64,000 nt of DNA from Telluribacter humicola (GTDB lineage: Bacteria > Bacteroidota > Bacteroidia > Cytophagales > Spirosomataceae): the NCBI RefSeq assembly GCF_017355935.1, contig NZ_JAFIQT010000001.1:248001-312000 (forward strand), read 5' to 3'. Each line of letters starts with the position of its first letter. Position 1 is the first letter of the stretch. The translations under genes were made by a program, and so were the position numbers. This document shows positions 8,385 to 64,000 of the stretch, piece by piece. The notes below the pieces were generated by a model. The model searched no databases, was not told the origin of the DNA, and saw only the letters and a program-made list of their open reading frames with translations.

Positions 8385-9737
8385 TTACCGCCTCAGGAGC
8401 CACTGCTCAGGGTTGAGGCGGGTTGTATTTTTCCAGATCTGAAACTGTAGCTCCGAAGTACCATCGCTATCGCTGGCTACGGTACCTATGGGGTCACGGG
8501 CTTTCACCTTCTGACCAGTCCGCACGGATACGTTTTGCATCTTGGCGTATACGGTCATGTAGTCTCCGTGCTGTATGGCTACTACGTTACCCATGCCAGG
8601 CATATCCGTTACGTCCAGGACCACGCCATCGTAGACCGCTTTTACTGACTCACCATTGCTGGTCTGAATATCTATACCCAGATTATCTACCATCACCCCT
8701 TTCAGTACCGGGTGTGCTTTGCGTCCGAAGTGATCCGACACAAAGCCTTTGACCGGCCAGGGCAGGCGTGCCCGCGATGCTGTAAACGAAGACGCCAGTG
8801 CTACCTCCTCGTTGGTCATACCTCCGGAGTTAGCAGGTTCGGCGGCTTTTTCGGCGGGCCTCTCTTCGGCTACAACTGCCGGTGTCTCACCATTTTTAGC
8901 TGCTCTTTCGCGCTCGGCCTTTTCACGGGCCAGACGTTCCCGTTCGGCCCGCTCACGTGCTTCCCGTTCCCGGCGCTCGCGCTCAGCCCGCTCGCGCATC
9001 TCACGCTCCACCAGGCGACGGATCGTCGACTCCAGCTGGTTGGCAGCACGACGGTTGGCGGCCAGTTCGGTACGTAGCTGTGATTCCTTCTGTGATAGTT
9101 CCTTTACAACGGCGTCCTGCTGTACCTTTAGGGTTTCAAGCTTTTTGGCTTCGCCGACGCGAGTCGTCAGTACTTTTTGCTGCTGCTGCTTCTTTGAGGT
9201 AATTCGTTCACGCTTCTGAGCCAGTTGCTGCTGTAGCTCCTCCATTTGCTTCACCTGCTCCTGTCGGGTATCAGTATACTGCTTCAGGTACTTGTAACGT
9301 AGTACAAACTGATTAAATGTAGAAGCCGAAAACAGGAAGACCAACTGGTTGAGGTACGCATTACGCTTTGATGCTTCATAGATCATATGACCGTACTCTT
9401 TTTTGAGCTTGGCCAGATCACCATTCAGCTCCTGACGGGCTTTTTCCAGATTACGAAGTTCGCTATCCAGAATCTGCAGGTCGTCCGATAACAGGTCTAT
9501 CTGTTTCTTTTGGGTATTGATCTGTTGGTTTAGCGCGCGTAGCTGCCCTACACTTACTTTCTTCTGAGAAGATGTTTCCTGCAGAATCCCCTGTATCTCT
9601 TTCATCTTATCCTGGTTCTCACGCTTTTCACGCTCGAGTTGCTGCCGGCTTTTCTGGGCATACGCCCCGATGCTGCTGATGGCCGTCAGGAGCAGGACTA
9701 AGAGTAAACCACGATGTAAAGTACTTTGAAAACGCAT
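8385..9737 (-). CDS. EnvC-like murein hydrolase activator with degenerate LytM (M23) domain
   Basis: Secreted protein of 450 residues: signal peptide (about 1-27, ending AYAQ), long coiled coil (about 30-240), an unusually regular Glu/Arg-rich stretch (about 240-285, repeats of RERAERER type) that should form a stiff helix, then a LytM domain (about 325-450). Active M23 peptidases need HxxxD and HxH zinc ligands; here the first histidine position reads NLGIDI and the HxH region reads LQFQIW, so the zinc site is gone. This matches EnvC/NlpD-type activators that switch on amidases during septum splitting. A TACCTTTG -7-like box lies on the minus strand at 9781-9788. Confidence 0.92.
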   Translation of the reverse strand: MRFQSTLHRGLLLVLLLTAISSIGAYAQKSRQQLEREKRENQDKMKEIQGILQETSSQKKVSVGQLRALNQQINTQKKQIDLLSDDLQILDSELRNLEKARQELNGDLAKLKKEYGHMIYEASKRNAYLNQLVFLFSASTFNQFVLRYKYLKQYTDTRQEQVKQMEELQQQLAQKRERITSKKQQQQKVLTTRVGEAKKLETLKVQQDAVVKELSQKESQLRTELAANRRAANQLESTIRRLVEREMRERAERERREREARERAERERLAREKAERERAAKNGETPAVVAEERPAEKAAEPANSGGMTNEEVALASSFTASRARLPWPVKGFVSDHFGRKAHPVLKGVMVDNLGIDIQTSNGESVKAVYDGVVLDVTDMPGMGNVVAIQHGDYMTVYAKMQNVSVRTGQKVKARDPIGTVASDSDGTSELQFQIWKNTTRLNPEQWLLRR

Positions 9738-9836
9738 GTTACTATTTTTAAAGGAGCACGCATGACCTCCTTCCTTCCCGCAAAGGTAAGCAGACTTAGG
9801 AGTTTAGCCCTAACCCATGCCTGATCAATCCCGTAT

Positions 9837-10697
9837 TTACTGTTTTCTTTTATAGCTGGATGGGATACTAAACGGAAATCCGGGACTCGATTCTGTCAAC
9901 TCTACCTTGTTATGTTTGATACGAATGACCGTTTGGTAATATTGCTGGTCCTGTGGCGACTTCACATCCAGGGTAATCAGGCTGGTGTACGGAAACAGGT
10001 AGTTACTCAGTTCCTGAAAGTCTTCGTAGTCCAGCGTTAGGGAGTTGCGGGAAGGCTGTTCAACAGCCTGAAGGCGCTTGAGTTTGCGGGTTTTCTCACC
10101 GATGTAGTTGTCAATCATGATACGGCCTTCCTTCTGGCGAAGCAGCAGGTAGTCTTTCTCACGGCGTATCTTCTGATCCGGCTCGCGCGGGAGTGGCAGG
10201 TTACCTATAATAAGTGACTGGATAAGCGGAAAGCTCAGCTCGAAGTTAAACTGCCGGCTGATCTGTGGATAGGTAAATACAAAATATTCCTTGTGGAATT
10301 TGTCAATAAATACAATCGAATCGGGGGTAATAAGGCCACGAGCTACCTCAAATCCGGCTCCGGTCACTGACAACCAGATCAGGCTGTCCTTCTTGACCCG
10401 GAGGTTGACGTTAGCGTTTTCAATATTCTGGGTGCGACTTTTGAAGGAAAACTTGGAACGAGCCAGCAGGTAGTCAAAGTTGATTTCTTCTACGTTGATA
10501 GTAACCTTGCTGCCTTCTTCTTCCGGCTGATTGGCGGCTATTGTGTCAGTACGGATAGAGTCCGCATTTGCTCCTTTGGTTGAGTCTGTTTTAATAAGTA
10601 CTTCACTTTTTTGAGTGTTTTGGGTACGAGGCTTATGACAGGCCGTAAACAACAGGCAACCCAGTACTCCAAACCACCAGATAATTTTACTGTTCAT
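9837..10697 (-). CDS. DUF4292 outer-membrane-type lipoprotein
   Basis: 286-residue protein starting MNSKIIWWFGVLGCLLFTAC, a lipoprotein signal with cysteine 20. After a low-complexity linker (about 25-60) the body (INFDYLLARSKFSF..., VNLRVKKDSLIWLSV, PDSIVFIDKFHKEYFVF) matches the DUF4292 pattern, a Bacteroidetes family with a LolA/LolB-like fold; by analogy it may handle lipids or lipoproteins at the outer membrane, which is inference. The chosen ATG at 10697 puts the lipobox at the right distance; a longer start would add 13 residues before it. It overlaps the end of the TPR gene by 11 bases, so both are translated from one message. Confidence 0.88.
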   Translation of the reverse strand: MNSKIIWWFGVLGCLLFTACHKPRTQNTQKSEVLIKTDSTKGANADSIRTDTIAANQPEEEGSKVTINVEEINFDYLLARSKFSFKSRTQNIENANVNLRVKKDSLIWLSVTGAGFEVARGLITPDSIVFIDKFHKEYFVFTYPQISRQFNFELSFPLIQSLIIGNLPLPREPDQKIRREKDYLLLRQKEGRIMIDNYIGEKTRKLKRLQAVEQPSRNSLTLDYEDFQELSNYLFPYTSLITLDVKSPQDQQYYQTVIRIKHNKVELTESSPGFPFSIPSSYKRKQ

Positions 10698-12432
10698 GCA
10701 GTGTTCCGGTTGTGATTTTCTTATCAATCTGATCACTTGCTTCGCCCTTGGCTTTGGCTTTTTTCCAGTTTTCCACTGCTTTATCCCGCTCTCCTAGCTG
10801 GAATAGTACATCACCGTAGTGTTCCAAAATCGTACCGCTTACTTTCTCATTGAGCTGAATGGCTTTCTCCAGGTACTGCTTAGCTTTCTTATACTCTTTG
10901 CGGGTGTACAGGACCCAGGCATAGGTATCCAGAAAGGTGGCGTTGTTCTGATGGCGCTGTACCAGCCGCTCCGACATCTGTAGAGCCAGATCCAGTTTTT
11001 CTTTTCTCAGGGATAAGAAATAGCTGTAATTATTCAGGACGTGATCGTTATTAGGGTCCTCCTTCAGAGCCAAATCATACGAAGAGTCAGATTTGGAATG
11101 GTCGCCCAGACCATTGTAGGCATCACCCAACTGGGCATTGATGACAGGGATCATCTGCGGGTTGTTATTAATCAGCTTGCGGCTCTCTTCCAGAGCGGAC
11201 ACTGCTTTCTTAAAATTACGCTTGACCAGATGAGCGGACCCATTGGAATACCAGAACATACCCTGATTAGGGAACATTTCGAGAGCCTGCTCTGAGTGCA
11301 CCAGCAGACTATCCACCTGGTTCAGTTCACCATCCAGCTGTAGTACCGCTCCCCATACTTCAAATACAGAACCGTCTATGCGGGCAGCGCGGCTGTACAT
11401 GTTGCGGGCATCGGATTTGAGTCCCTGCTGCACCAGCAAGTCAGCGTACAGTACCAGGGCACGGGCCTCTCCGGAATGCGTCTCTACCAGTTGTTTGGCC
11501 AGCTGAAGGGCCTCCTCACGGTCTTTATCAGTTTTGAGCATGGTCAGGTAGCCCGACAAGACTCTTACCTTAGGCTCAGCGTCCAGATTAGGGTTTGAAA
11601 ATACAATACGTAGCTCCTTGTTACACTTCTCCACATCTCCTTTTCTCCGATAGATGTCTGCTAACAGGACATGAGCCTGGGCTTCGTCCGGGTTGAGGCG
11701 CAGAGCTTCTTCGAGTGGAACTACCGCGTCATCTATGCGTTCGTTGGCGATCAATAGCTCCGCCAGTTCGATCCGGTACGACACCTCAGTGGCCTCGGCA
11801 TTGATCAGCTTGCGGGCTTCTTCAATGGCCTTAGGGAGCTTGTTCTGACGTAGGTACAGCTGTTGTTTTTGATGGATGATCTCTTCTGTAACTCCGATCG
11901 ACTTTTCCATCTGATCGTACGTAGCTATAGCTTTGTCAAACTGGTCACTGAATACATATACTGCAGCCAGCTCTATACCATATTGAATATTAGCGGGATC
12001 TTTCTTAAGTAAGGCTTCATAAATAGCGGCAGCTTCGTTGTACTTGCGCTGCTTGGCATAAATTTCGGCCAGTTGCTGCCCGTAGAACTTGTTGGTATTG
12101 TCGAGCTCGTAGGCCTTCTGGGATTGCTGTATGGCATCATTGAGCCGGTCCAGCTTCATAAGGGCTGTGGCGGCCATAAAGTAGCCGGCCGGGTCGCTGG
12201 GACTTTGCTTGATGAGTTTTTCGAAGACAGGAAGCGCACGGGCCGGTTCGTCCATCATCATATACTTCATACCTTCGGCCGTCAGGCTTTCTTCTTCCAG
12301 GCGGAAGCCTGCTACGCCGCCACTCTTTTCTTTGTCGCGGGCTTTAGAACGACGCTGAGCGAAGGCTTCGTCGGCACCGGATGCTACCAGTACGCCTACC
12401 AGCAGGGCTATTTTAAAATAATGTGTTCTCAT
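10687..12432 (-). CDS. Secreted tetratricopeptide repeat protein
   Basis: 581-residue periplasmic protein: signal peptide (about 1-25, ending EAFAQ) followed by TPR units nearly to the end, for example PAGYFMAATALMKLDRLNDAIQ and NATFLDTYAWVLYTRKEYKKAKQYL. TPR arrays are protein-binding scaffolds, so it probably holds an envelope complex, and its overlap with the DUF4292 lipoprotein gene suggests the two act together at the outer membrane. This pairing is common in Bacteroidetes as far as I recall. A TATATTTG sequence at 12484-12491 on the minus strand, about 50 bases upstream, is a candidate -7 box. Confidence 0.93.
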   Translation of the reverse strand: MRTHYFKIALLVGVLVASGADEAFAQRRSKARDKEKSGGVAGFRLEEESLTAEGMKYMMMDEPARALPVFEKLIKQSPSDPAGYFMAATALMKLDRLNDAIQQSQKAYELDNTNKFYGQQLAEIYAKQRKYNEAAAIYEALLKKDPANIQYGIELAAVYVFSDQFDKAIATYDQMEKSIGVTEEIIHQKQQLYLRQNKLPKAIEEARKLINAEATEVSYRIELAELLIANERIDDAVVPLEEALRLNPDEAQAHVLLADIYRRKGDVEKCNKELRIVFSNPNLDAEPKVRVLSGYLTMLKTDKDREEALQLAKQLVETHSGEARALVLYADLLVQQGLKSDARNMYSRAARIDGSVFEVWGAVLQLDGELNQVDSLLVHSEQALEMFPNQGMFWYSNGSAHLVKRNFKKAVSALEESRKLINNNPQMIPVINAQLGDAYNGLGDHSKSDSSYDLALKEDPNNDHVLNNYSYFLSLRKEKLDLALQMSERLVQRHQNNATFLDTYAWVLYTRKEYKKAKQYLEKAIQLNEKVSGTILEHYGDVLFQLGERDKAVENWKKAKAKGEASDQIDKKITTGTLHEQ

Positions 12433-54923: not shown

Positions 54924-55256
54924 TTAAGATTTACTACGATTAACCTGATCCATGAAGTGGTTCCAGCGGCGACGGGCTACTACAATGGAGGTCCCATCTG
55001 TTAATTGCACTGACTTAGTGGATATATCTACATCCAGAAGGTACGCCAGATTGATAATGTGCTGCTTATGAATCCGGCAGAATCCACCAGGTGCCGCAAC
55101 CAGATAACTCCTCATAGGATAGCTGGTCAGGTACCTTTTACCACCTATGGAGAAGATCTCCGTATAATTACAATCGCCCTTCATCCGAACAATCTCCTGC
55201 CAGGGAAAGGGGAGTTGGTGCTGTTTAGCCCTGGAGATTGAAATTATGCAGGTCAT
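54924..55256 (-). CDS. Stand-alone LytTR DNA-binding domain protein
   Basis: 110 residues forming little more than a LytTR domain: RMKGDCNYTEIFSIGGKRYLTSYPMRSYLVAAPGGFCRIHKQHIINLAYLLDVD and SIVVARRRWNHFMDQV match the 'dgnYt.i.l.dGk..l...sL...e..L....F.RiHrsyiVNl..i' pattern. There is no receiver domain. It sits within the late structural operon, 14 bases before the tail terminator-like gene, so it is probably a phage-encoded transcription regulator of late or host genes. Confidence 0.88.
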   Translation of the reverse strand: MTCIISISRAKQHQLPFPWQEIVRMKGDCNYTEIFSIGGKRYLTSYPMRSYLVAAPGGFCRIHKQHIINLAYLLDVDISTKSVQLTDGTSIVVARRRWNHFMDQVNRSKS

Positions 55257-57076: not shown

Positions 57077-58027
57077 TCAGAGGCCTATGATTTTGAGTCC
57101 GGTATTATCAATCAGGCCGCTGCCGGTGGTGGGTTCGCTGGTCAGACTGATCACTGCTTCGGCTAAGCGTTCCAGTCCCGACTGGGCGCGGCTACGGGCA
57201 GCCGCCAGGAGGCTCTCGCGGGTAGCGTGGTCGGGTGGCGAGTAGTACTTCACGTTGCCGATCTGGCTGGTGTAGTTGAGTCGAAGGCCTTCGGCATTCA
57301 GCTCCACGGCCATATTGAGCTCGATGGCATCGGCTACGGTGCAGTACGCCAGGGCGCGCTGCGCCTGCCGGCGAAGCTTCTTTTTGGCATCTGACAGGTT
57401 GCTGTTACCCTGCAATTCGGTATAGAGCGCAGGACCCAGGACAGGAGCAACGCGGTCGTCCTCGTTCTGGACGATCAGGGGCATAAGCCCCCGGTAGGTC
57501 AGGTGGCTATCAAAGATCTGGTAGGCCGTCGAGAACTCCCGGGCGTTGGGCAGCAGGCTCTTGGGCCGGGCTTTCAGTACCTCCTGATGATCCGTGTAGT
57601 CGGCTACCTTCTTTTCCAGGAAGGTCAGCAGCCGTTCGAGGGCATCCATGCCCATGGTGAGCAGGCTCAGACGCAGACGCAGGATCTGGGCGTTGTCGGC
57701 TCCTTTGCGGCTGTCACCTTCGTCGTAGGTCGTGACACCCCGGCCATCGATCTGCACTTCGCCGATGGGAATATAGCGCGTCATGGCAATGGGAGCCAGG
57801 GCGGGCTGTATTTCTTTCAGCAGGGCTTCCTGCATCTCATCCAGCTTGGAAAAAGTGGGCGCATTATAGGCTTTATCCAGTTCCTGAATGAGCTTTTCGC
57901 CGCAGTACGGTTCCAGAACAGAACGCTGCACGTCCATGATCACGGGACGAATCTTGTCGAAACTGAGTACGGAGTTGATCCCCGGCAGATACTGCGCGAG
58001 CTCCTCGGTGGTTTTGAACAGGGCCAT
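57077..58027 (-). CDS. Head-tail connector-like protein (DUF6712-like)
   Basis: 316 residues: helical, with two halves of similar style, MALFKTTEELAQYLPGINSVLSF... and FSTAYQIFDSHLTYRGLMPLIVQNEDDRVAPVLGPALYTELQGN..., both like the 'connector gp6' pattern in which an initial helix marks the residue block that binds the portal. Recollection places it in the Bacteroidetes phage group called DUF6712. Its ATG overlaps the portal stop (TAATG), supporting a neck role. Confidence 0.65.
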   Translation of the reverse strand: MALFKTTEELAQYLPGINSVLSFDKIRPVIMDVQRSVLEPYCGEKLIQELDKAYNAPTFSKLDEMQEALLKEIQPALAPIAMTRYIPIGEVQIDGRGVTTYDEGDSRKGADNAQILRLRLSLLTMGMDALERLLTFLEKKVADYTDHQEVLKARPKSLLPNAREFSTAYQIFDSHLTYRGLMPLIVQNEDDRVAPVLGPALYTELQGNSNLSDAKKKLRRQAQRALAYCTVADAIELNMAVELNAEGLRLNYTSQIGNVKYYSPPDHATRESLLAAARSRAQSGLERLAEAVISLTSEPTTGSGLIDNTGLKIIGL

Positions 58028-59412
58028 TAGCTAAGGACTTTTTTGGTTCCGGCTCCGGTATCGAGCGTAGTCAGGATCACGTCGCGGTGCCGGAATTTCA
58101 GGTTAGGATATTTGGTGGTCCAACCGTTGAATTCAGCGGCGTAGTAGTAGGGTTCGAGCAGGGGATCGCGGAACACATTGAGCATGTGCATCAGGATCAG
58201 CCAGGCCTCGCGCTTGTCGGAACCTCCGGAGCGGGCGCCCATCTTATCGCCGCCGGCAAAGCCCACGATGGTGGGATCGATACCCAGGGCGTAAAACAGG
58301 TTAGCCGCGGCTTCGAGGCCGTCCTGGATATACTTGCCCTCTTTCATGTGGTCGGTAACCGCCACGATTTCGAGGAACTCCTGGTACTGGGCCTTCTCGC
58401 CGTTGAGCCATTTTCGCTCGGTCATAATCGACAGCCCGGCTTTGTCGGCGCTGGTGAGCGTATCGGTCATTTCGGTGAGCCATTCCCGCTTTTTGGCCCG
58501 CTTTTCGGCCGGACTGTATTTGTCCCAGGCTTCTTTACCGTGCAGGTGCTCCCAGTACTTGACATCCACCTTCAGGTGGTACTTGAGGCTCATTTCATTC
58601 TGCATCATGGCCTTTTTGAAGGCCGGTACCATCAGGTGCACATCTAGCCAGCCGCTGGTGCGGATGGAGTCGTGGGTGGGCAGCTGGTAGTAGTCGCGCC
58701 CGGGCGTAGGAATGTTGATGGGATAGATAAAGCTACCCTCGCTGAGCTGGCGGGCCCAGTCAATGCGGTCGTACCGGTACGGATCCAGGCAGCGGCGCTT
58801 GATGGTGAGCGGATCGTTCTGGACCACGTTGGGCCAGTTGGCGTTGATGTGGACCCATTCGATCTCTCCCCTGTCGTTCATTTTCTGGTACCGGCAGTAG
58901 GCCGCTTCCTGGTGGGCGATGTACAGGATCCGCTTGCGGTCGCGCGACATGATCAGCTCCGGAAAGGCATTGTACAGCCACACCAGGTCACTGGTGCCTT
59001 CCCGGAGGTACCGCTTGTTGGATACGTTGTTCAGAAAGGTGTTGATCTCGGGATCATTCACCCACTGCACGATTTCAGAGTTATCCGCATTGTAGCCAAT
59101 CACCTGGAAGGGGATCACGTCATTCATGTTGACCATCGCCGTCTTTTTAGCGAAGGTTTCCGGAATGATCGGATCCTTGGAGTACTGCTCGATGAGCCGC
59201 TGCGGATAGTCGTTGGAATCACCCCAGGGCTGCGGAGCGTCTTTTCCGGAAGCGCCGCCCCCCATTTCTTTCTTTCGGGGCATGGCCGGCTTTACCGCCT
59301 GAGCCGATGGCTGCGCGCCCTGGCCCGTGCTGGCCATGTGGACGGTCATCTGCGCGGCGGGCAGGTAAGCCACATCCAGATTGTCGGAACTATGAAGCCA
59401 GGAAATGCTCAT
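58027..59412 (-). CDS. Phage portal protein
   Basis: 461 residues. Typical portal traits: a disordered Ala/Gly/Pro-rich start (about 25-70), the clip/stem core with WVNDPEINTFLNNVSN, RDRKRILYIAHQEAAYCRYQK and DWARQLSEGSFIYPINIPTPGRDYYQLP, and the long helical wing ending in MLNVFRDPLLEPYYYAAEFNGW. It forms the DNA entry ring of the head and docks the terminase. The start overlaps the preceding stop (ATGA), and its own stop overlaps the connector start. The usual protease and capsid genes do not follow it. Confidence 0.78.
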   Translation of the reverse strand: MSISWLHSSDNLDVAYLPAAQMTVHMASTGQGAQPSAQAVKPAMPRKKEMGGGASGKDAPQPWGDSNDYPQRLIEQYSKDPIIPETFAKKTAMVNMNDVIPFQVIGYNADNSEIVQWVNDPEINTFLNNVSNKRYLREGTSDLVWLYNAFPELIMSRDRKRILYIAHQEAAYCRYQKMNDRGEIEWVHINANWPNVVQNDPLTIKRRCLDPYRYDRIDWARQLSEGSFIYPINIPTPGRDYYQLPTHDSIRTSGWLDVHLMVPAFKKAMMQNEMSLKYHLKVDVKYWEHLHGKEAWDKYSPAEKRAKKREWLTEMTDTLTSADKAGLSIMTERKWLNGEKAQYQEFLEIVAVTDHMKEGKYIQDGLEAAANLFYALGIDPTIVGFAGGDKMGARSGGSDKREAWLILMHMLNVFRDPLLEPYYYAAEFNGWTTKYPNLKFRHRDVILTTLDTGAGTKKVLS

Positions 59413-59681
59413 GCGATGGGCTGGTCGTTAAGATAGAGAATGAGGTCAAGGTGTACTTTCACGTAGTCATTGGTGCCCAGCGGCCGTACGTTAATGGTCC
59501 GGTTGTGCCGGCTTCCCGATCGCTCCCGGTCCGACAGCACTACTTTTTCGAGGCGCTTTGTATCGCCTCCGGTATTGCGAGCCCGGTCGGCCGTCACGAA
59601 CACGATACTGAACGGCTTGGGCATCCCATTGGCCGTAGTACGTTTCATAAGGTCGAACGCGTCGGGATTGAGTTTGAGCAT
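59409..59681 (-). CDS. Small phage protein upstream of portal, hypothetical
   Basis: 90 residues starting MLKLNPDAFDLMKRTTANGMPKPFSIVFVTADRARNTGG..., with KVHLDLILYLNDQPIA at the end. Mixed alpha/beta composition. It shares a 4-base overlap with the portal gene and therefore its transcript. Start at the ATG 59681; an in-frame TTG at 59717 is weaker. Function unknown. Confidence 0.72.
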   Translation of the reverse strand: MLKLNPDAFDLMKRTTANGMPKPFSIVFVTADRARNTGGDTKRLEKVVLSDRERSGSRHNRTINVRPLGTNDYVKVHLDLILYLNDQPIA

Positions 59682-59756
59682 GGTCAGGGAGCTGTAAGAA
59701 TGACCAATACTAGCCAATTGGAGGGGAAATGGGTTCGACAGTGATCGGGTCGAACT

Positions 59757-59772
59757 GTTTGAAATTTCACAC
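59757..59772 (+). promoter_or_regulatory. Imperfect copy of the accessory-block operator
   Basis: GTTTGAAATTTCACAC, followed after 12 bases by TTAG (5985-88 of the 59.7-kb block, i.e. 59785-59788), 21 bases before the ATG of the 74-residue gene. Left arm and spacing match the palindromes at 61540 and 62530; the right arm has one change. Confidence 0.75.
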
Positions 59773-59808
59773 GAAATACGTACCTTAGACTATCTAAATT
59801 CGAGCACG

Positions 59809-60033
59809 ATGAATACCGACGAAGCTTTCAAAAAACTACTGGATGATGAGTACCTGTGGGGAAGGACGGGCGAAGCTCCGGACCGGCGACGCTACTTCAA
59901 GCACCTGGTCCAGAAAAAGAAGAATCTGACAACGGATAAGAAGATGGAGCTGCTTCAGAAAGCAGGTTTCGTCGTCGTACAGGATATAAAGTGGGGCCTC
60001 ACCGGAGGCTTTGAGCGGGAGACAAACTCCTGA
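59809..60033 (+). CDS. Small plus-strand protein (74 aa), possible regulator
   Basis: MNTDEAFKKLLDDEYLWGRTGEAPDRRRYFKHLVQKKKNLTTDKKMELLQKAGFVVVQDIKWG: helical and strongly charged. I recall similar small proteins with 'Y.W.kTG....tRR..k....g.l....k..lL.kAGf...Q...W' in Cytophagales and their phages, without a known function. It is one of few plus-strand genes in the phage, has an upstream copy of the shared operator, and ends in a bidirectional terminator, so an autoregulated DNA-binding role is plausible. Confidence 0.7.
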   Translation: MNTDEAFKKLLDDEYLWGRTGEAPDRRRYFKHLVQKKKNLTTDKKMELLQKAGFVVVQDIKWGLTGGFERETNS

Positions 60034-60064
60034 AAAAAGCGTTATCTTTGAGCTTTCACTGTTT

Positions 60065-60081
60065 AAGTGGAATTGATTTAC
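60065..60081. repeat. Dispersed element with ATTGATTTAC core
   Basis: AAGTGGAATTGATTTAC. The last 16 bases occur identically at 31601-31616, and the core ATTGATTTAC recurs at about 61493, 61510 and 62500, always in the same orientation. Confidence 0.7.
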
Positions 60082-60091
60082 TTAATACAGA

Positions 60092-60124
60092 AAAGCCCCT
60101 GCCGAATGGCGGGGGCTTTTTTTG
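60092..60124. terminator. Bidirectional terminator between the 74-aa gene and the 175-aa membrane gene
   Basis: AAAAGCCCCTGCC / GGCGGGGGCTTTT (one mismatch), loop GAAT, with seven T following on the plus strand. Confidence 0.9.
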
Positions 60125-60145
60125 TGTTTTTGGGGGGAGAATAAA

Positions 60146-60673
60146 TTATTTAGTTAAAAGCTCAACTATATCAAGCTTTTTGGCCCCAAAGAACAGAGCT
60201 ACTAGCCAGTAGATTACTAGGAATATCTTAACTATAACCTTTTCGGGTAAAACACCAAAGTACTTGAAGAGATGCTCGGGTAGCTTTACTAGAAATTCAA
60301 TCCAGAAAAGTGGGTTTATTGAATCATAGCACCTTTTTCTAAAAACCCCTTTTGCTTCGAAAAATCTCATTCGCATTGGTATGAATACGTTCTCACCGCG
60401 ATATGTCATGTTTTCAAAACCCGAAACCGTTGCTTCAGCTAATCGACCATATCCTAGTCTTTCTTGGTACTGTACTCCGAAGTCTTTTATTTCTGCTTCC
60501 TGGAATAGGGATTTAATCTCACTTTTATACTCAGCAAAGCTTAGAGTGTCATTTTTTATATAATCAATGTATTTTTTGTAGAGTGCCTGAATACGGAAAT
60601 ATTTATACAGGTTGATGATTAGTCTTACTAGCATAATTACTAGGAAGGAATAAAGATAAGGCAAGTAGTTCAT
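60146..60673 (-). CDS. AT-rich phage-encoded membrane protein, hypothetical
   Basis: 175 residues starting MNYLPYLYSFLVIMLVRLIINLYKYFRIQ, with one helix at the N-terminus, a soluble charged middle (about 35-120) and one or two helices at the C-terminus (VIVKIFLVIYWLVALFF). Base composition is distinctly poorer in GC than the surrounding phage structural genes, suggesting a recently acquired cargo gene. The ATG at 60673 is preferred; a TTG at 60706 would add 11 residues. Function unknown. Confidence 0.75.
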   Translation of the reverse strand: MNYLPYLYSFLVIMLVRLIINLYKYFRIQALYKKYIDYIKNDTLSFAEYKSEIKSLFQEAEIKDFGVQYQERLGYGRLAEATVSGFENMTYRGENVFIPMRMRFFEAKGVFRKRCYDSINPLFWIEFLVKLPEHLFKYFGVLPEKVIVKIFLVIYWLVALFFGAKKLDIVELLTK

Positions 60674-60986
60674 AAGAATTATGAGATAGTGGGGTATACA
60701 TTTCAAATGTAGAGAATTAACATCTATAAATCTACCAGTTCCATTTCTTTACCCTGGGCTGGATCTTAGCTTTATTTCAAAGCTGTGGTACCGCTCAGGG
60801 ATTTGGTGACACTCGGGGAATAGAACCGAGCGAGGTGTGCTAGTTTGCAGGACTCGCCCGGTTTAATTCCCCAGGCCGCTTCGGGCGCGGGCATTTGCCA
60901 GGGAGCGGGTTCTTTGCTTCTTTCTTGACGCAGGGCAAGAAAGAAGCCGCCCAATCGGGCGGCTCTTTCCGTATCACTTCCTCTTA
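60674..60986. other. Intergenic stretch with paired hairpins
   Basis: About 310 bases between two minus-strand genes. The left part is featureless and contains only an unconvincing 60-codon frame; the right end carries two adjacent stem-loops described separately. Confidence 0.5.
60916..60963 (-). terminator. Two adjacent stem-loops after the 159-aa gene
   Basis: On the minus strand, first GCCGCCC/GGGCGGC with a 4-base loop followed by TTCTTTCTT, then a perfect 12-bp stem GCTTCTTTCTTG / CAAGAAAGAAGC with an 8-base loop. The two stems share 2 bases, and the pyrimidine tail of the first is an arm of the second. Confidence 0.75.
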
Positions 60987-61466
60987 TCAGTTAGGGGCTT
61001 TATACCGTAGTAGCTCCTGTTCTACTTCGGTAGTCTTATCAGCCAGTACCTGTTGCAGGAACTGAATCAGCGGCTCTATCAGGTTGGCATTGCGGGTCTC
61101 AAATCGGTGTCCCTTACTGTCCGTAATGTAGAGCGTTACGGTATTGTTCACTTCCTCCGTAGGCTTAAAATCAAACTGCCCTAGCTCCTCGGAGGTAGTT
61201 TTTAACATCTTGTGCGACTTGGTAAGCCGTTCCATCTGCTGAAACTGCTTCATTACCTGTTCAATCTGCGAAGCTACCGGAACAGCGGGTTGGGCTTCGG
61301 GTTGCCGCTGGGGTTGGGCTTCCTCCTGGGTAGCCGTTACGGCTTGGCTCTTTTTCTCTGCGCTCGGAGTGGCCGTCAAGGGGCGGATGGTTGACTCAGG
61401 GAGTGCAGGGGTAGGCTTCAGGTTGCTTTGTCCGTTGCCGTGGGCGGTTGCATGTTGCTTGTTCAT
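60987..61466 (-). CDS. Accessory phage protein with low-complexity head and coiled coil, hypothetical
   Basis: 159 residues: a Pro/Gln/Ala-rich first half (about 1-65), then helical IEQVMKQFQQMERLTKSHKMLKTTSEELGQF, a small beta-like part (VTLYITDSKGHRFETRNANLIEPLIQF) and a helical end. The gene follows ArdC in the same direction and has its own copy of the shared palindrome promoter. Proteins of this sort often accompany ArdC in Bacteroidetes mobile elements as far as I recall. Function unknown. Confidence 0.75.
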   Translation of the reverse strand: MNKQHATAHGNGQSNLKPTPALPESTIRPLTATPSAEKKSQAVTATQEEAQPQRQPEAQPAVPVASQIEQVMKQFQQMERLTKSHKMLKTTSEELGQFDFKPTEEVNNTVTLYITDSKGHRFETRNANLIEPLIQFLQQVLADKTTEVEQELLRYKAPN

Positions 61467-61523
61467 AAGATACTGACTGTTTTAAGTGATGAATTGATTT
61501 ACAATAAGAATTGATTTACAGAA

Positions 61524-61555
61524 CTAAGTTACACAATTTGTTTGAAATTTCAAAC
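61524..61555 (-). promoter_or_regulatory. Operator-promoter of the 159-aa gene
   Basis: Perfect 16-bp palindrome GTTTGAAATTTCAAAC (61540-61555), then 12 bases and TTAG on the minus strand (61527-61524). It overlaps the last codons of ardC. The leader then contains GTAAATCAAT twice. Confidence 0.8.
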
Positions 61556-62467
61556 GGTTAAGGGCAAAAAAAAGTGTGGGGTCTGTACCTGCTCGGTTAA
61601 GAACTGGTAGCCACGTTTGGCTAATTTGGAGGCTTCCACTATCATAGAAGTATCTTCCCGTAGCCGTTTCACCCATCCTTTAATATAAGCTTCGGCGTTT
61701 TCCTGCACAGGGGCAGTATCTATTCCAAAGGCATTGCACAGGAAACAACTACCAATTTCCGCTACCAGCTCTTCAAAACTGTACTTCTCATCCCCGAACT
61801 TTTTGGAATCGGTCAGGCTCTCCCGGTTCAGGCGGTCTTTGTGTCCGGTACTGTGGATCAGTTCATGAAATAGGGTAGCATAGTAATGTTCCGTGCTGAA
61901 AAACTGCTCTAACAAAGGCATGGTGATAACATCATACGCCTTATTGTAAACGGCATAATCTGACAGCTTGCACTGTATAGTAGGAGCGTTCTCGAGGTGG
62001 TCTATGAAATAATCACATTCATAGATAGAGGCTTTTTTATCCCACTGGCGGGTGGATTGCTTCTTGATCTCTATTCCTGTAGTCATAGAGATGTTAAACA
62101 CATAATCGTATTTCAGGTAGTAACGCTTTTCGTAAGTACTAGGATGCATAGTCTTTACCAGATCTTCCGAAATCTTGTTTCCTTTCAGGTCGTAGTACAG
62201 GTATTTGTTAAAAACGATTAACGAGGCCTTACTACCTTTCTTTACCCGTCCACCTGCTTTATTGATCTGGTTCAGGGTCGCAAAGTAGGGCGTTTCGTAA
62301 TTGTCCATTAGCATCAACAACGAATTAACACCGCTGTAAATGTGGCCTGTAAAGTAGTTCTGTGCGGGTTCTACGAATCCCCAAGGCTGCCGCCAGGGCA
62401 CAACACCTTTTTCTAATGATGCAACAATACGCTCGGTGATCTGATCAAAAATGACTTCCTTTTTCAT
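61550..62467 (-). CDS. ardC: ArdC-type antirestriction protein with zincin-like domain
   Basis: 305 residues. The N-terminal ArdC domain (about 1-130: VIFDQITERIVASLEKGVVPWRQPW, YSGVNSLLMLM, YFATLNQINKAGGRVKKGSKA) binds single-stranded DNA in characterised homologues. The C-terminal part is a metallopeptidase-like domain with HELIHSTGH (His201, Glu202, His205, His209) and SFEELVAEIGS. Such proteins protect incoming DNA from restriction in plasmids and phages. Here it lies between terminase and portal genes, with its own promoter carrying the shared palindrome. Confidence 0.92.
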   Translation of the reverse strand: MKKEVIFDQITERIVASLEKGVVPWRQPWGFVEPAQNYFTGHIYSGVNSLLMLMDNYETPYFATLNQINKAGGRVKKGSKASLIVFNKYLYYDLKGNKISEDLVKTMHPSTYEKRYYLKYDYVFNISMTTGIEIKKQSTRQWDKKASIYECDYFIDHLENAPTIQCKLSDYAVYNKAYDVITMPLLEQFFSTEHYYATLFHELIHSTGHKDRLNRESLTDSKKFGDEKYSFEELVAEIGSCFLCNAFGIDTAPVQENAEAYIKGWVKRLREDTSMIVEASKLAKRGYQFLTEQVQTPHFFLPLTV

Positions 62468-62794
62468 GATAACTGACTGTTTAAGTGATACATTAAGTGA
62501 TTGATTTACAGTACTAATATACCACTTTCGTTTGAATTTTCAAACGATTCTTGGTAAATAATTACACTTTTTTTGATCTTTTTCTTATTGATTTTCAGGC
62601 GTTTGAGCAATCGAAGATGCGAAAAAAGCCTATCCCTCGGAGAGTTGACCCCGACACGCGCTGTCCGTGATCGCAATTGCAGGGGGGGACCCGTCGCGAT
62701 ATATGACCCGTGGAACATTGTAATATTGCAATAGTTCCACGGAGCGACAAAAGTCCCTTATAATGCAATCCGAATAAAAAAAGAGTCCCTTATG
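62468..62794. other. Intergenic region between ardC and terminase with dyad and short repeats
   Basis: About 325 bases. Besides the ardC operator-promoter, it holds a dyad CCGTGGAAC / GTTCCACGG (62708-62742, arms extended by ATTG/CAAT) and a 10-base direct repeat AGTCCCTTAT (62752-62761 and 62784-62793). No convincing gene; a 70-codon minus-strand frame looks random. Confidence 0.6.
62514..62545 (-). promoter_or_regulatory. Operator-promoter of ardC
   Basis: Inverted repeat GTTTGAATTTTCAAAC (62530-62545), 12 bases, TTAG on the minus strand (62517-62514). The leader TTAGTACTGTAAATCAAT and the TCACTTAAACAGTCAGT just before the ATG are nearly identical to those of the 159-aa gene. Confidence 0.8.
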
Positions 62795-64000
62795 TTAGGA
62801 GGTAAGGATATCCATTGTATCCCCTACTTCCTCCCTTATGTAGCGAGTGAAGCCAACTAAAAGAGTATCCCCTCCGTCAGAGAAGTGGGTTGTTTCACGT
62901 TGATCGAGTTCCTTATTCTTTTCGTCTTTCTTGTCCTTAGCAAATCCCTGTTCCTTTTGGGTAGTCCTTGCCATACGCATGGAGGTAAGCAGGTACTCAT
63001 TGTTTCCCCTGTTGATCAGTACCTCAGGAGTAGACTCATCACCACCACGAAGCGCTTTACCCCACAGCTCGAAACGAACTTCCGGTTTCTCAGTATGACC
63101 AATGTATACCATCTCCACATTCCAACCATTGCTTTCAAGAATACGACAGAACTCATCGGCTGGGGATTCATCCAACTGGGAGCTGGTATAGGTAGCCGTA
63201 TGATCATAGTAGTAATACACCTTCTTGGACTTGTGGTACTTGTAGTAATTGCAGAAAGCCCTGGCGCAATCCGCTAATCGCTCCGGATGCTTTACGTACA
63301 TACTGTTAATGATCTTCAGATCCTTCTTCCGCCATTGCTGGCCTATGACAATGGGATTAATGGCAGCATTATAGTCTCCACCAATGTGAAGGGGAGCATT
63401 AGGATTCAGGTCAGCATCTTTTCTGCAGTCATCAAACTTCACCTTCTCCCAATCCACCGAATCCACATAGGCGTAGTCAACGGCATCATAGAGGTGTCCC
63501 TCGCCCAGATCAGGATAGAAAGCACTTTCGGTAAGAAATGGCTCCTTATTCAGGATTGCCGTCATAAAGATGAACGCCGGCAGGATCCGCTTCAGGCGAG
63601 CCAGGTTCTTAGCACCAAACCCTTCCAGGTTGTCCAGCGTACTGGCCAGTGAGTAGTACCTGGCATTAGCGCGGAGCTTATCCCATTGAGCACGGCGACG
63701 GCTTAGCTCACGAAGTACATTGGCTTTCGTAGTGCCCTGGGCAAACACCAGCTTCTTGGTAAGCCGGAATATTTCCATCTGCACCGACAGGATCAACTCA
63801 ATCCGATCGATATCCATTTCATGTTTCTTTTCCAGGATCCATTTAGCCTCTTTTGACGTAGGCATATCCGTAGCCAGCAGGATGCTATGCAATTCCGGAA
63901 CATCCTTCCAGTACCGCTCATCGCCCCGGTTAGCCGGCATCAGCTCATTATCGTACTTCTGCTTATCGAGTAGCTTGGCTTCATCCCCAACGATCCAGTG
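62795..64000 (-). CDS. Terminase large subunit, C-terminal part (runs off the right edge)
   Basis: Packages phage DNA into the head. About 401 residues are visible; the N-terminal ATPase start lies beyond 64000. At the edge, HWIVGDEAKLLDKQKYDNELM gives Walker B with the catalytic Glu. The nuclease domain follows: HIGGDYNAAINPIVIG (first metal Asp), a YYYYDHTATYTSS block and a conserved acidic patch before LLVGFTRYI near the end. An internal ATG at 63940 is not a start. It is separated from the portal gene by about 3.4 kb of accessory genes, unlike the usual tight order. Confidence 0.85.
   Translation of the reverse strand, partial: HWIVGDEAKLLDKQKYDNELMPANRGDERYWKDVPELHSILLATDMPTSKEAKWILEKKHEMDIDRIELILSVQMEIFRLTKKLVFAQGTTKANVLRELSRRRAQWDKLRANARYYSLASTLDNLEGFGAKNLARLKRILPAFIFMTAILNKEPFLTESAFYPDLGEGHLYDAVDYAYVDSVDWEKVKFDDCRKDADLNPNAPLHIGGDYNAAINPIVIGQQWRKKDLKIINSMYVKHPERLADCARAFCNYYKYHKSKKVYYYYDHTATYTSSQLDESPADEFCRILESNGWNVEMVYIGHTEKPEVRFELWGKALRGGDESTPEVLINRGNNEYLLTSMRMARTTQKEQGFAKDKKDEKNKELDQRETTHFSDGGDTLLVGFTRYIREEVGDTMDILTS

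Follow-up and report, generated by a model that had tools for sequence, protein, structure and literature searches.

Small RNAs made from the 3' ends of mRNAs carry an antisense stretch by an intrinsic terminator and target sequences near start codons. Among transcriptional systems, the Aca repressors have a helix-turn-helix fold, and the aca gene lies with the anti-defence gene in the operon it regulates. They are small phage proteins with an inverted repeat in the core promoter, a proposed autoregulation and an anti-defence target (PMC9410906). On plasmid R388, PardC is one of several early-entry promoters repressed by ArdK/KorA, whose sites lie at the -35 box and whose operator sequences vary within the family (PMC9723621). 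In archaeal viruses, a common promoter motif with a consensus marks anti-defence genes (PMC11065993).

Here we analyse a prophage locus of Telluribacter humicola, within a window of 64,000 nucleotides, together with related prophages. It contains genes for a 74-residue protein (p74), for ArdC and for a 159-residue protein (p159). We found no published account of p74-like genes or of ardC control in such prophages among titles and abstract openings, a coverage that leaves out most subscription journals. As in the Aca systems, a small phage protein is paired with an inverted repeat in the core promoter and an anti-defence target; unlike there, the cargo serves antirestriction, p74 belongs to the phage core genes and lies outside the cargo operon, on the opposite strand, and the operator varies in sequence from prophage to prophage. 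Comparison of p74 with Aca used Pfam, PHROGs and fold; p74 has no match in Pfam or PHROGs and no recognised domain. The targets, site position and operator variability of ArdK/KorA resemble those proposed here, but unlike p74, ArdK has 102 aa and prefers direct repeats (PMC9723621); no ArdK/KorA Pfam match was obtained among the 16 p74 family members scanned, nor any among the PDB profile matches. Whereas the archaeal viruses have a consensus motif, each prophage here has a private motif tied to its own proposed regulator gene. An antisense stretch adjoins an intrinsic terminator in all nine cargo-bearing loci, as in 3'-end small RNAs, but unlike those known, the parent mRNA here would encode a transcriptional repressor of the same targets. 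We think it rather probable that a p74 repressor at a shared operator, plus an antisense element (R') in the p74 3'UTR, controls the cargo.

Promoter architecture and occurrence of the palindrome

The original prediction placed a palindrome, GTTTGAAWTTTCAAAC, ahead of ardC and p159 and, with one changed arm, ahead of p74, and counted TTAG, 12 bases further on the coding strand, as part of the operator. The three palindromes are present, two exact and one with one mismatch (Table 1), and TTAG follows after 12 bases at 3/3 sites; this distance, however, is core promoter spacing. The published Bacteroidota consensus has a -7 box TAnnTTTG and a TTTG near -33 (PMC7366714), and the -7 box, described also in PMC9723704, spans -12 to -5. 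In the window, TTAG is the second half of TAnnTTAG, one base off the consensus TTTG, and the TTTG of the left arm lies exactly 19 bp ahead, giving TTTG-N19-TAnnTTAG at all three sites. As read from these motifs, N12-TTAG closes a Bacteroidota sigma-A promoter and is not an operator part; with TTTG-N19-TAnnTTAG as the promoter, the palindrome therefore covers the -33 region. Across prophages, eight sites have the palindrome centre 16 bp from the TA of the -7 box and three have it 17 bp away, cargo sites having been counted by hand.

This geometry bears on the direction of control. It is quite unlikely that p74, once bound to the palindrome, acts as an activator of the cargo, although geometry alone does not fix the sign and some activators bind near -35. 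With the -7 box at -12 to -5 (PMC9723704), the dyad centre falls about 28 bp upstream of the start point; a dimer sitting there, over the -33 region and the spacer, would obstruct polymerase. In the comparable circuits, those of Aca and ArdK, the regulator represses (PMC9410906, PMC9723621).

The palindrome is not frequent in its own genome (6,559,206 bases), where exact copies occur only at the ardC and p159 operators; allowing one mismatch brings in the p74 site and a contig C19 site inside a 1007-aa ORF, and allowing two brings in four further places. At up to three mismatches the window contains 8 strand matches against a shuffle mean of 0.97 (sd 1.27), and 0 of 100 window shuffles attain 8. 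In public collections the palindrome plus a -7 box is found in 2 viral contigs and 15 genome stretches; by eye, none of the ORFs listed within 250 bp downstream was ardC-like. Six of the 15 stretches lie 11-123 bp ahead of a tRNA-Leu gene; by eye, an acyltransferase-like gene follows two others and a TetR-like gene follows one, two are terminator-like and four lie at other genes. Judged from these occurrences, the conserved feature is not the GTTTGAAWTTTCAAAC sequence itself.

A LexA/SOS operator was considered and rejected, the palindromes being by eye unlike the boxes CTAA-N5-TTAG and GGA-N5-TCC described for Bacteroidetes LexA in PMC8565304.

Table 1. Features of the p74-ardC locus, in window coordinates.
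Feature	Position	Strand	Basis
Portal-like gene; synteny anchor; PHROG match weak only, E 0.078	58027..59412	-	
p90, first gene of portal-like operon, divergent from p74; synteny anchor	59409..59681	-	
p74 promoter operator GTTTGAAATTTCACAC, one arm changed, over -33 region	59757..59772	+	sequence matches
-7 box TACCTTAG, p74 promoter; 19 bp after TTTG	59781..59788	+	sequence; PMC7366714, PMC9723704 consensus
p74, 74 aa, proposed autoregulator, prophage-family core gene	59809..60033	+	
R' antisense stretch, p74 3'UTR, 12 + 12 nt, complementary to ardC/p159 leaders	60058..60081	+	
Intrinsic terminator of p74 transcript; hairpin -25.0 kcal/mol, then T run; 8 nt after R'	60090..60121	+	
186-aa ORF, TTG start, at cargo-block end, without family match	60146..60706	-	
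p159, proline-rich cargo gene; phrog_19224 (unknown function), E 5.4e-6	60987..61466	-	
p159-leader R elements, starting 9 nt ahead of ATG	61476..61519	-	
R in p159 leader: block with one extra base	61476-61488	-	
R in p159 leader: exact 12-nt blocks	61491-61502, 61508-61519	-	
-7 box TAACTTAG, p159 promoter	61524..61531	-	sequence
p159 promoter operator, perfect 16-bp palindrome	61540..61555	-	
ardC, 305 aa; ArdcN + MPTase-PolyVal domains; phrog_7245 anti-restriction protein	61550..62467	-	
ardC-leader R element, starting 8 nt ahead of ATG; 12 + 10 nt complementary to R'	62476..62509	-	
-7 box TATATTAG, ardC promoter	62514..62521	-	sequence
ardC promoter operator	62530..62545	-	
Terminase-like gene, cargo block's left anchor; 573-aa ORF continuing beyond window end; no Pfam or PHROG match	62795..64000	-	name from position and by-eye inspection only

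The operator is shared in five of seven prophages and co-diverges

The original prediction also held that one regulator serves these promoters and that p74 is a candidate for it, and operator sequences from related prophages point the same way. In five of seven prophages, the best off-site match to the 20-bp p74 operator, over 60-112 kb segments and both strands, is the ardC or p159 promoter, with the same geometry and a differing sequence. The matching positions out of 20 were 17 and 16 in G000 (next 14), 16 in G225 (next 15), 14 in G211 (next 13), 17 in G227 (next 14) and 16 in G160 (next 14), the G160 scan also giving 15 of 20 at the same and an overlapping position. The operator sequence varies by prophage, with G211 and G227 alike, and its position is kept, the centre lying 16-17 bp before the -7 box. 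The pairing of each p74 operator with its own cargo operator scored better than 118 of 119 other permutations and tied with one, because the G211 and G227 operators are alike; the first operator pairs had been spotted by eye ahead of the systematic scan, and the G227 ardC operator in this test was itself found using the p74 operator. Whole-genome searches at up to two mismatches, with patterns built from the sites themselves, returned ardC and p74 only in G227, p159 and p74 only in G160 (the reversed control matching once per strand) and, with the pattern from its two sites, both sites plus one 2-mismatch place in G225.

The signal is uneven. In the reciprocal search of G211 other sites outrank p74, and its 2-mismatch genome pattern misses ardC. 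In G029b the operator is partly shared (12/20 by hand count), and neither operator appears in the other's top list except for an 11/15 core tied with other places. No operator common to p74 and cargo promoters was found in G195 or G202, and the promoter scan gave no cargo partner at the 13 cargo-free p74 loci. An apparent shared operator in the G195 p74 promoter, AAAGGAAAGTAAGGC, was rejected, as it matches a late-gene element instead.

That the ardC and p159 promoters are a recent tandem duplication resembling the p74 promoter by chance would account for the palindrome, TTAGTnCTGTAAATCAAT and pre-ATG element common to both leaders; the same sharing, with other sequences, in four other prophages (weakest in G211) makes this reading very unlikely and largely excludes it. 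It is also unlikely that the palindromes are bound by another regulator, from the prophage or from the host (LexA, for example), with p74 as just one of its targets. Binding by p74 is a prediction from sequence, and the prophage region does encode regulator-like proteins, namely a D5-like 268-aa protein and a LytTR protein. Nevertheless, the only gene to carry the operator in all five sharing prophages is p74, and the window's own genome has almost no such sites elsewhere; moreover, the operator differs inside one host genus (G225 versus G211 and G227), so a host factor would not explain it. The co-divergence of operators at a kept position is strong indirect evidence for p74 as autoregulator of its own promoter, a role that we consider likely.

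p74 as a phage core gene beside variable cargo

The p74 gene lies between the terminase-like and portal-like genes, adjoining the variable cargo block, on the strand opposite to the cargo and with its own promoter. A p74 profile matched 19 of 222 family genomes, the window's own genome included. The AF2 model, built from 4 sequences, has four helices and two short strands (pLDDT 77.3); Foldseek returned 13 weak matches for it with E 1.3 to 9.4, Aca11 (9lx2) among them, of which 12 we take to be DNA-binding regulators or proteins carrying such a domain.

Single-protein scans of viral contigs gave no ArdC or p74 relatives, and alignment gave three p74 loci: one 100% identical to G225 over 16,213 bp, and two that share p74 and the listed promoter stretch with G029c and G018. 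These three provide no independent evidence.

The original prediction of a self-contained antirestriction module placed inside a phage stands in part: an antirestriction block does lie inside the phage. Of 22 loci examined (21 with p74 plus the p74-less G196), nine carry ardC, p159 or a RadC-like gene, and 13 carry none of these nearby (E 1e-3). As the latter are 13 of the 21 p74 loci, p74 is not cargo and the module is not self-contained. It was the R' match of G029b that first marked this locus as cargo-bearing, and the later cargo search gave the counts above.

Two of the cargo-free p74 loci, G212a and G212b, also lack phage anchors and may therefore fall outside this prophage type.

A putative antisense element in the p74 3'UTR

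The leader sequence and the element just before the ATG said to be shared by ardC and p159 are indeed present in both, and inverted copies of the two lie in the p74 3'UTR. This stretch, R', lies on the p74 strand and is exactly complementary over 10-16 nt to leaders (R) directly before cargo ATGs. Its sequence is prophage-specific, with a partner ahead of a cargo ATG in 9/9 cargo-bearing loci: seven by scan (10-16 nt, at most 41 nt from the ATG), and two by eye and later located, in G160 (15 nt), which the automatic scan missed, and G196 (14 nt), which it did not include. No cargo-type partner was found in 13/13 loci without cargo. In all nine cargo-bearing loci, a hairpin of -13.7 to -25.0 kcal/mol follows 0-9 nt after R', and R' leads no ORF longer than 54 aa on the other strand.

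In duplex tests over seven prophages, leaving out G160 and G196, the diagonal was the best of 5040 permutations, and shuffled antisense attained the observed energy in 5/300 cases for G211, 1/300 for G202 and 0/300 for the other five. When duplexes were ranked against ORF leaders within 20 kb, the cargo came first in 7/8, the G160 cargo falling outside the top six with the stretch after the p74 stop used there; over all ORFs of at least 40 aa it came first in 6/9, with G211 third, G196 fourth and G160 again outside the top six. By length alone, the 10-nt match of G195 falls under its shuffled 95% level. Rfam gave no match above the gathering score over 59600-62700.

A different account, in which R and R' are direct repeats bounding cargo cassettes (R-gene-R-gene-R) and not antisense, would leave the operator in place and remove the RNA layer; we hold it somewhat unlikely. 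Recombination between R copies would gain or lose cargo and could also preserve the likeness of the copies, which are all direct repeats on one strand. The late-strand copies are indeed co-oriented, with one before the cargo ATG and the last at the right end of the block; cargo content is variable at a fixed place among prophages, and R' partners occur only where cargo is present. However, the last copy stands 0-9 nt before the p74-strand terminator in 9/9 loci, even behind a second gene (G160); in G196, where p74 was not found, it has its own promoter-like site; and, within the window's prophage region, some R blocks stand ahead of ORFs distant from the cargo block. One further exact R-block copy in that region has no ORF behind it. 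Whether R' of the p74 mRNA acts on the cargo leaders, as its complementarity suggests, is to us an even call.

Proposed two-level control

The promoters, palindromes, their geometry and co-divergence, the R/R' complementarity and the terminators are read from the sequence; from them we infer p74 as the binder, repression, an RNA made and pairing in the cell, and the timing. In the proposed mechanism, p74 would be a small DNA-binding repressor that occupies the palindrome over the -33 region of its own, the ardC and the p159 promoters and blocks RNA polymerase. Because p74 would be absent when the phage enters a naive cell, ardC and p159 would be made at once; p74 would then build up and turn off its own gene and the cargo. 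Its transcript would end in R', adjoining the terminator, and R' would pair with R just upstream of the cargo start codons, lowering translation. We put forward more tentatively that one prophage gene acts twice on antirestriction genes, as protein on operator and as mRNA tail on antisense target, with both codes changing together per prophage, so that each would have a private two-layer switch, and the RNA layer alone in G196. If true, the p74 operator and antisense tail would point to partners, providing a rule for finding anti-defence cargo, and related phages would supply a set of protein-operator and RNA-RNA pairs that have diverged together in nature, allowing direct tests of how regulatory specificity evolves.

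Cargo proteins and their relatives

Cargo content (ardC, p159, RadC-like) differs among prophages at a fixed place. The ardC product matches PF08401 (E 1.7e-22), PF18818 (E 5.6e-35) and phrog_7245 (E 5.9e-63); with both the ArdcN and the zincin-like metallopeptidase domains present, it is by sequence a member of the ArdC family. The RadC domain PF04002 was detected in 4/4 cargo proteins given (G211, G195, G160 and G029b; E 3.3e-34 to 5.6e-37). In contrast to p74, which has no match in the same 50,697 phage records, ArdC has relatives in 56 of them, all below 60% identity; the 20 of these 56 that were listed are 33-37% identical and mostly from Caulobacter phages.

Putative operators at the p74 and cargo promoters

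A sequence check confirmed the three palindromes that the original prediction had placed ahead of ardC, p159 (159 residues) and p74 (the plus-strand 74-residue gene proposed as an autoregulator), and a whole-genome scan found the palindrome nearly limited to these three promoters in the 6.56-Mb genome. The constant N12-TTAG spacing, which had been read as the mark of a single regulator, also holds, yet its cause is a TTTG-N19-TAnnTTAG promoter present in all three leaders, with TTTG supplied by the left arm of the palindrome. Excerpts of two papers describe the Bacteroidota promoter as a -33 TTTG plus a -7 TAnnTTTG (PMC7366714), with a -7 box spanning -12 to -5 (PMC9723704), so that each palindrome would cover the -33 region of a promoter; the palindromes are thus placed as putative operators in the classic repressor position.

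If p74 controls both itself and the cargo (the variable block of ardC, p159 and RadC-like genes), both promoters of each prophage should share an operator, regardless of its sequence. On this rationale, 20 bp at the p74 promoter were ranked against every position on both strands of the surrounding 38-112 kb, in seven loci with p74 plus ardC or p159. The best off-site match was the ardC or p159 promoter in five of the seven prophages (see table), and the operator centre lies 16 bp before the TA of the -7 box at eight sites and 17 bp at three, the cargo sites being counted by hand. Whole-genome patterns upheld operator specificity in G227, G160 and G225. G211 is the weakest case: its ardC promoter carries a perfect, correctly placed 26-bp dyad, but 14 of 20 positions agree with the p74 site and the reciprocal search scores other sites higher. 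The same ranking of surrounding sequence found no shared operator in G195 or G202, and in G029b the core CTTGGAA..T.TCC alone is shared, located by hand at 16 bp in both promoters. The hosts G225, G227 and G211 are members of a single genus and have ardC promoters with similar flanks (TAAATTGCAAAAATA-like), yet the G225 operator is unlike the other two: operator specificity has been altered in place.

Coordinates and sequences of the features (G, related genomes; G000, own genome; C11, own-genome contig; R', complement of the leader element R)
Feature	Location	Position (strand)	Sequence or length	Remark
Palindrome before ardC	window	62530-62545
Palindrome before p159	window	61540-61555
Palindrome before p74	window	59757-59772		one arm changed
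Shared operator	G000		GTTTGAAWTTTCAAAC	20-bp ranking
Shared operator	G225		CCGTYGYAAATT-type	20-bp ranking
Shared operator	G227		GCGTTAGGAATTCCTAACAC	20-bp ranking
Shared operator	G211		GCGTT-N10-AACGC	20-bp ranking
Shared operator	G160		TATGGCAAATGTGCCATA	20-bp ranking
R'	window	60058-60081	12 + 12 nt	8 nt ahead of p74 terminator
R' exact match	G225		13 nt	scan
R' exact matches	G211		13 and 12 nt	scan
R' exact matches	G227		16 and 12 nt	scan
R' exact matches	G202		13, 11 and 11 nt	scan
R' exact match	G195		10 nt	scan
R' exact match	G029b (without ardC)		16 nt	5 nt before RadC-like gene
R' match	G160		15 nt	11 nt before p159 ATG; by eye
R' match	G196		14 nt	10 nt before ardC ATG; by eye
Late-gene repeat	window	59745 (minus)		before p90
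Late-gene repeat	window	54363 (minus)		before 1600-aa tail gene
LytTR protein	window	54924-55256 (minus)	110 aa	close to tail-fibre gene
Sequence 6 nt before gene starts	G000 C11 (L004/L005, beyond window)	340826, 333147, 332776, 331636	AGAAAGGAGGTGA	four prophage-region genes
Repeat array	L143 (G211 segment)	9662-11114 (printed copies)	TGTCTCCCTTAGC, 15 copies; GAGACGCAAGTCA, 14 copies	66-bp spacings or multiples

Gene order, cargo and the p74 protein

Homolog comparison gives the family gene order as terminase-like gene, cargo slot, p74 (opposite strand), p90, portal-like gene, p316 and p281, the names terminase and portal being assigned mainly from position. For the terminase-like ORF (573 aa) neither Pfam nor PHROG gave a match, and for the portal-like gene the PHROG match is weak; a head maturation protease and a tail-fibre protein are encoded close by. 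Sequence search found p74 in 13 of the 222 family genomes and profile search in 19 (own genome counted); of 390 genomes sampled from the order, eight carry it, all eight from the same family, and it had no match across 50,697 phage records. Six other genomes carry close-type ardC (43-50% identity), each time downstream of the terminase-like gene (about 11 kb away in G227) and ahead of p90 and the portal gene. Relatives of p159 were found in four other genomes by sequence, and in more by tblastn started from relatives; the G196/G202 form was equated with the others by eye, from position and sequence. Pfam confirms four RadC-like proteins, and tblastn places this cargo in G225, G227, G211, G160, G195 and G029b. 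Since nine of 22 loci hold ardC, p159 or RadC-like cargo and 13 hold none of these at E 1e-3, p74 is a core gene and ardC is cargo.

Neither Pfam nor PHROG recognised a domain in p74; a scan of 16 relatives gave five Pfam families, each hitting a single member with E no better than 0.018, and sequence search gave no solved relative, the best hit being a MarR regulator at E 0.48. Built from four sequences (pLDDT 77), the model shows four helices plus two short strands, and its 13 Foldseek matches all stand at E 1.3 or above. Twelve of these are DNA-binding regulators or carry a DNA-binding domain (Fur, DdrO, XRE, Aca11, AcrIIA15, C.Esp1396I). The modelled fold thus agrees with a DNA-binding role, short of proof.

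According to excerpts of the respective papers, ArdK of R388 represses PardC and other early-entry promoters through sites at the -35 box (PMC9723621), and the R388 ArdC protein functions in the recipient (PMC7213743). Together with ArdK, the Aca proteins (PMC9410906, in excerpt) serve as analogues for the control of prophage ardC, which by this analogy is probably wanted at entry and silenced afterwards. New here are the swapping operator and p74 as a fixed phage gene opposite a variable cargo slot, and also a probable antisense tail of the p74 transcript.

Complementarity between cargo leaders and the p74 transcript

The element said to be common to the leaders before the start codons (R) is real, and its reverse complement (R') lies in the p74 3'UTR. 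The complementarity recurs in other prophages with different sequences. An R' copy stands 0-9 nt from a strong hairpin in all nine cargo-bearing loci, none of which has an ORF >54 aa behind R' on the cargo strand, and in the 13 cargo-less loci no R' match turned up close to a cargo-type start codon within 8 kb. Two cases are telling: G160 has another ORF, of 137 aa, downstream of p74, and its R' lies at the terminator behind that ORF, away from the p74 stop; in G196, the profile search did not detect p74, and R' and a terminator nonetheless stand behind a promoter-like TTG-N20-TATTTTTA.

R blocks also occur in the window's prophage region (C11 334-342 kb), 19-64 nt before the ATG of three ORFs far from the cargo block. 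The blocks ahead of the 142-aa and 73-aa ORFs are exact and that of the 107-aa ORF has one mismatch; by eye, the start of a 20-aa ORF is nearer to the block of the 73-aa ORF, and a further exact copy is followed by no ORF. Standing ahead of several ORFs, R looks like a translation leader serving several genes.

Pairing each p74 3'UTR with the cargo leaders of its own prophage gave the best duplex score of 5040 assignments among seven prophages, and shuffled antisense attained the observed energy in 5/300 trials for G211, 1/300 for G202 and 0/300 for the others. Cargo ranked first in seven of eight prophages among leaders of ORFs of at least 60 aa within 20 kb; G160 failed because the stretch used was that after the p74 stop. 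A wider, noisier control (all ORFs of at least 40 aa, alternative starts, nine prophages) ranked cargo first in six of nine, third in G211, fourth in G196 and beyond the top six in G160. Support for R/R' pairing is stronger from the exact matches than from duplex energy, and recombination among direct repeats is a live rival account of this layer.

Other repeats and promoter-like sequences

A second prophage-specific repeat set precedes late genes in the window and at L138, L103, L139, L140, L096, L099, L102 and L094, with the best-scoring copies in late-gene sense. Copies lie 37-38 nt before an ORF start in three of four cases in G225, two of four in G221 and two of three in G243; often an RTTTCG-like box, judged by eye, follows just 3-9 nt short of the ATG, and the cores often include TGTC. 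These repeats may be late promoters that include an activator site which co-diverges. The 110-aa protein close to the tail-fibre gene, whose LytTR DNA-binding domain matches at E 3.9e-9, is a candidate late regulator.

The sequence before four genes on C11 is strongly Shine-Dalgarno-like, which is unusual for a phylum said, in excerpts of PMC6847099 and PMC3155529, to be without Shine-Dalgarno sequences. A different ardC type lies on other family contigs, own-genome C5 included (L013, L014, L018, L019), and about 0.5 kb after it, on the same strand, stands a promoter-like sequence that is nearly the same in each, TTTTGTGGAATTACGGCCGTTAATTATTTTAG with minor variation, and that contains a palindrome of its own. 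In Winogradskyella and Bizionia (L030, L032, L034, L038, L041, L042), GTTTGAATATTCAAAC or GTTTGAAATTTCAAAC plus a -7 box lies 11-123 bp before tRNA-Leu(TAG). At L039 the long dyad AAACGTTTGTTTGAATTTTCAAACAAACGTTT spans the promoter of a gene that by eye is TetR-like, and is perhaps that gene's own operator. The dense repeat array of L143 is situated far upstream of the prophage block in G211.
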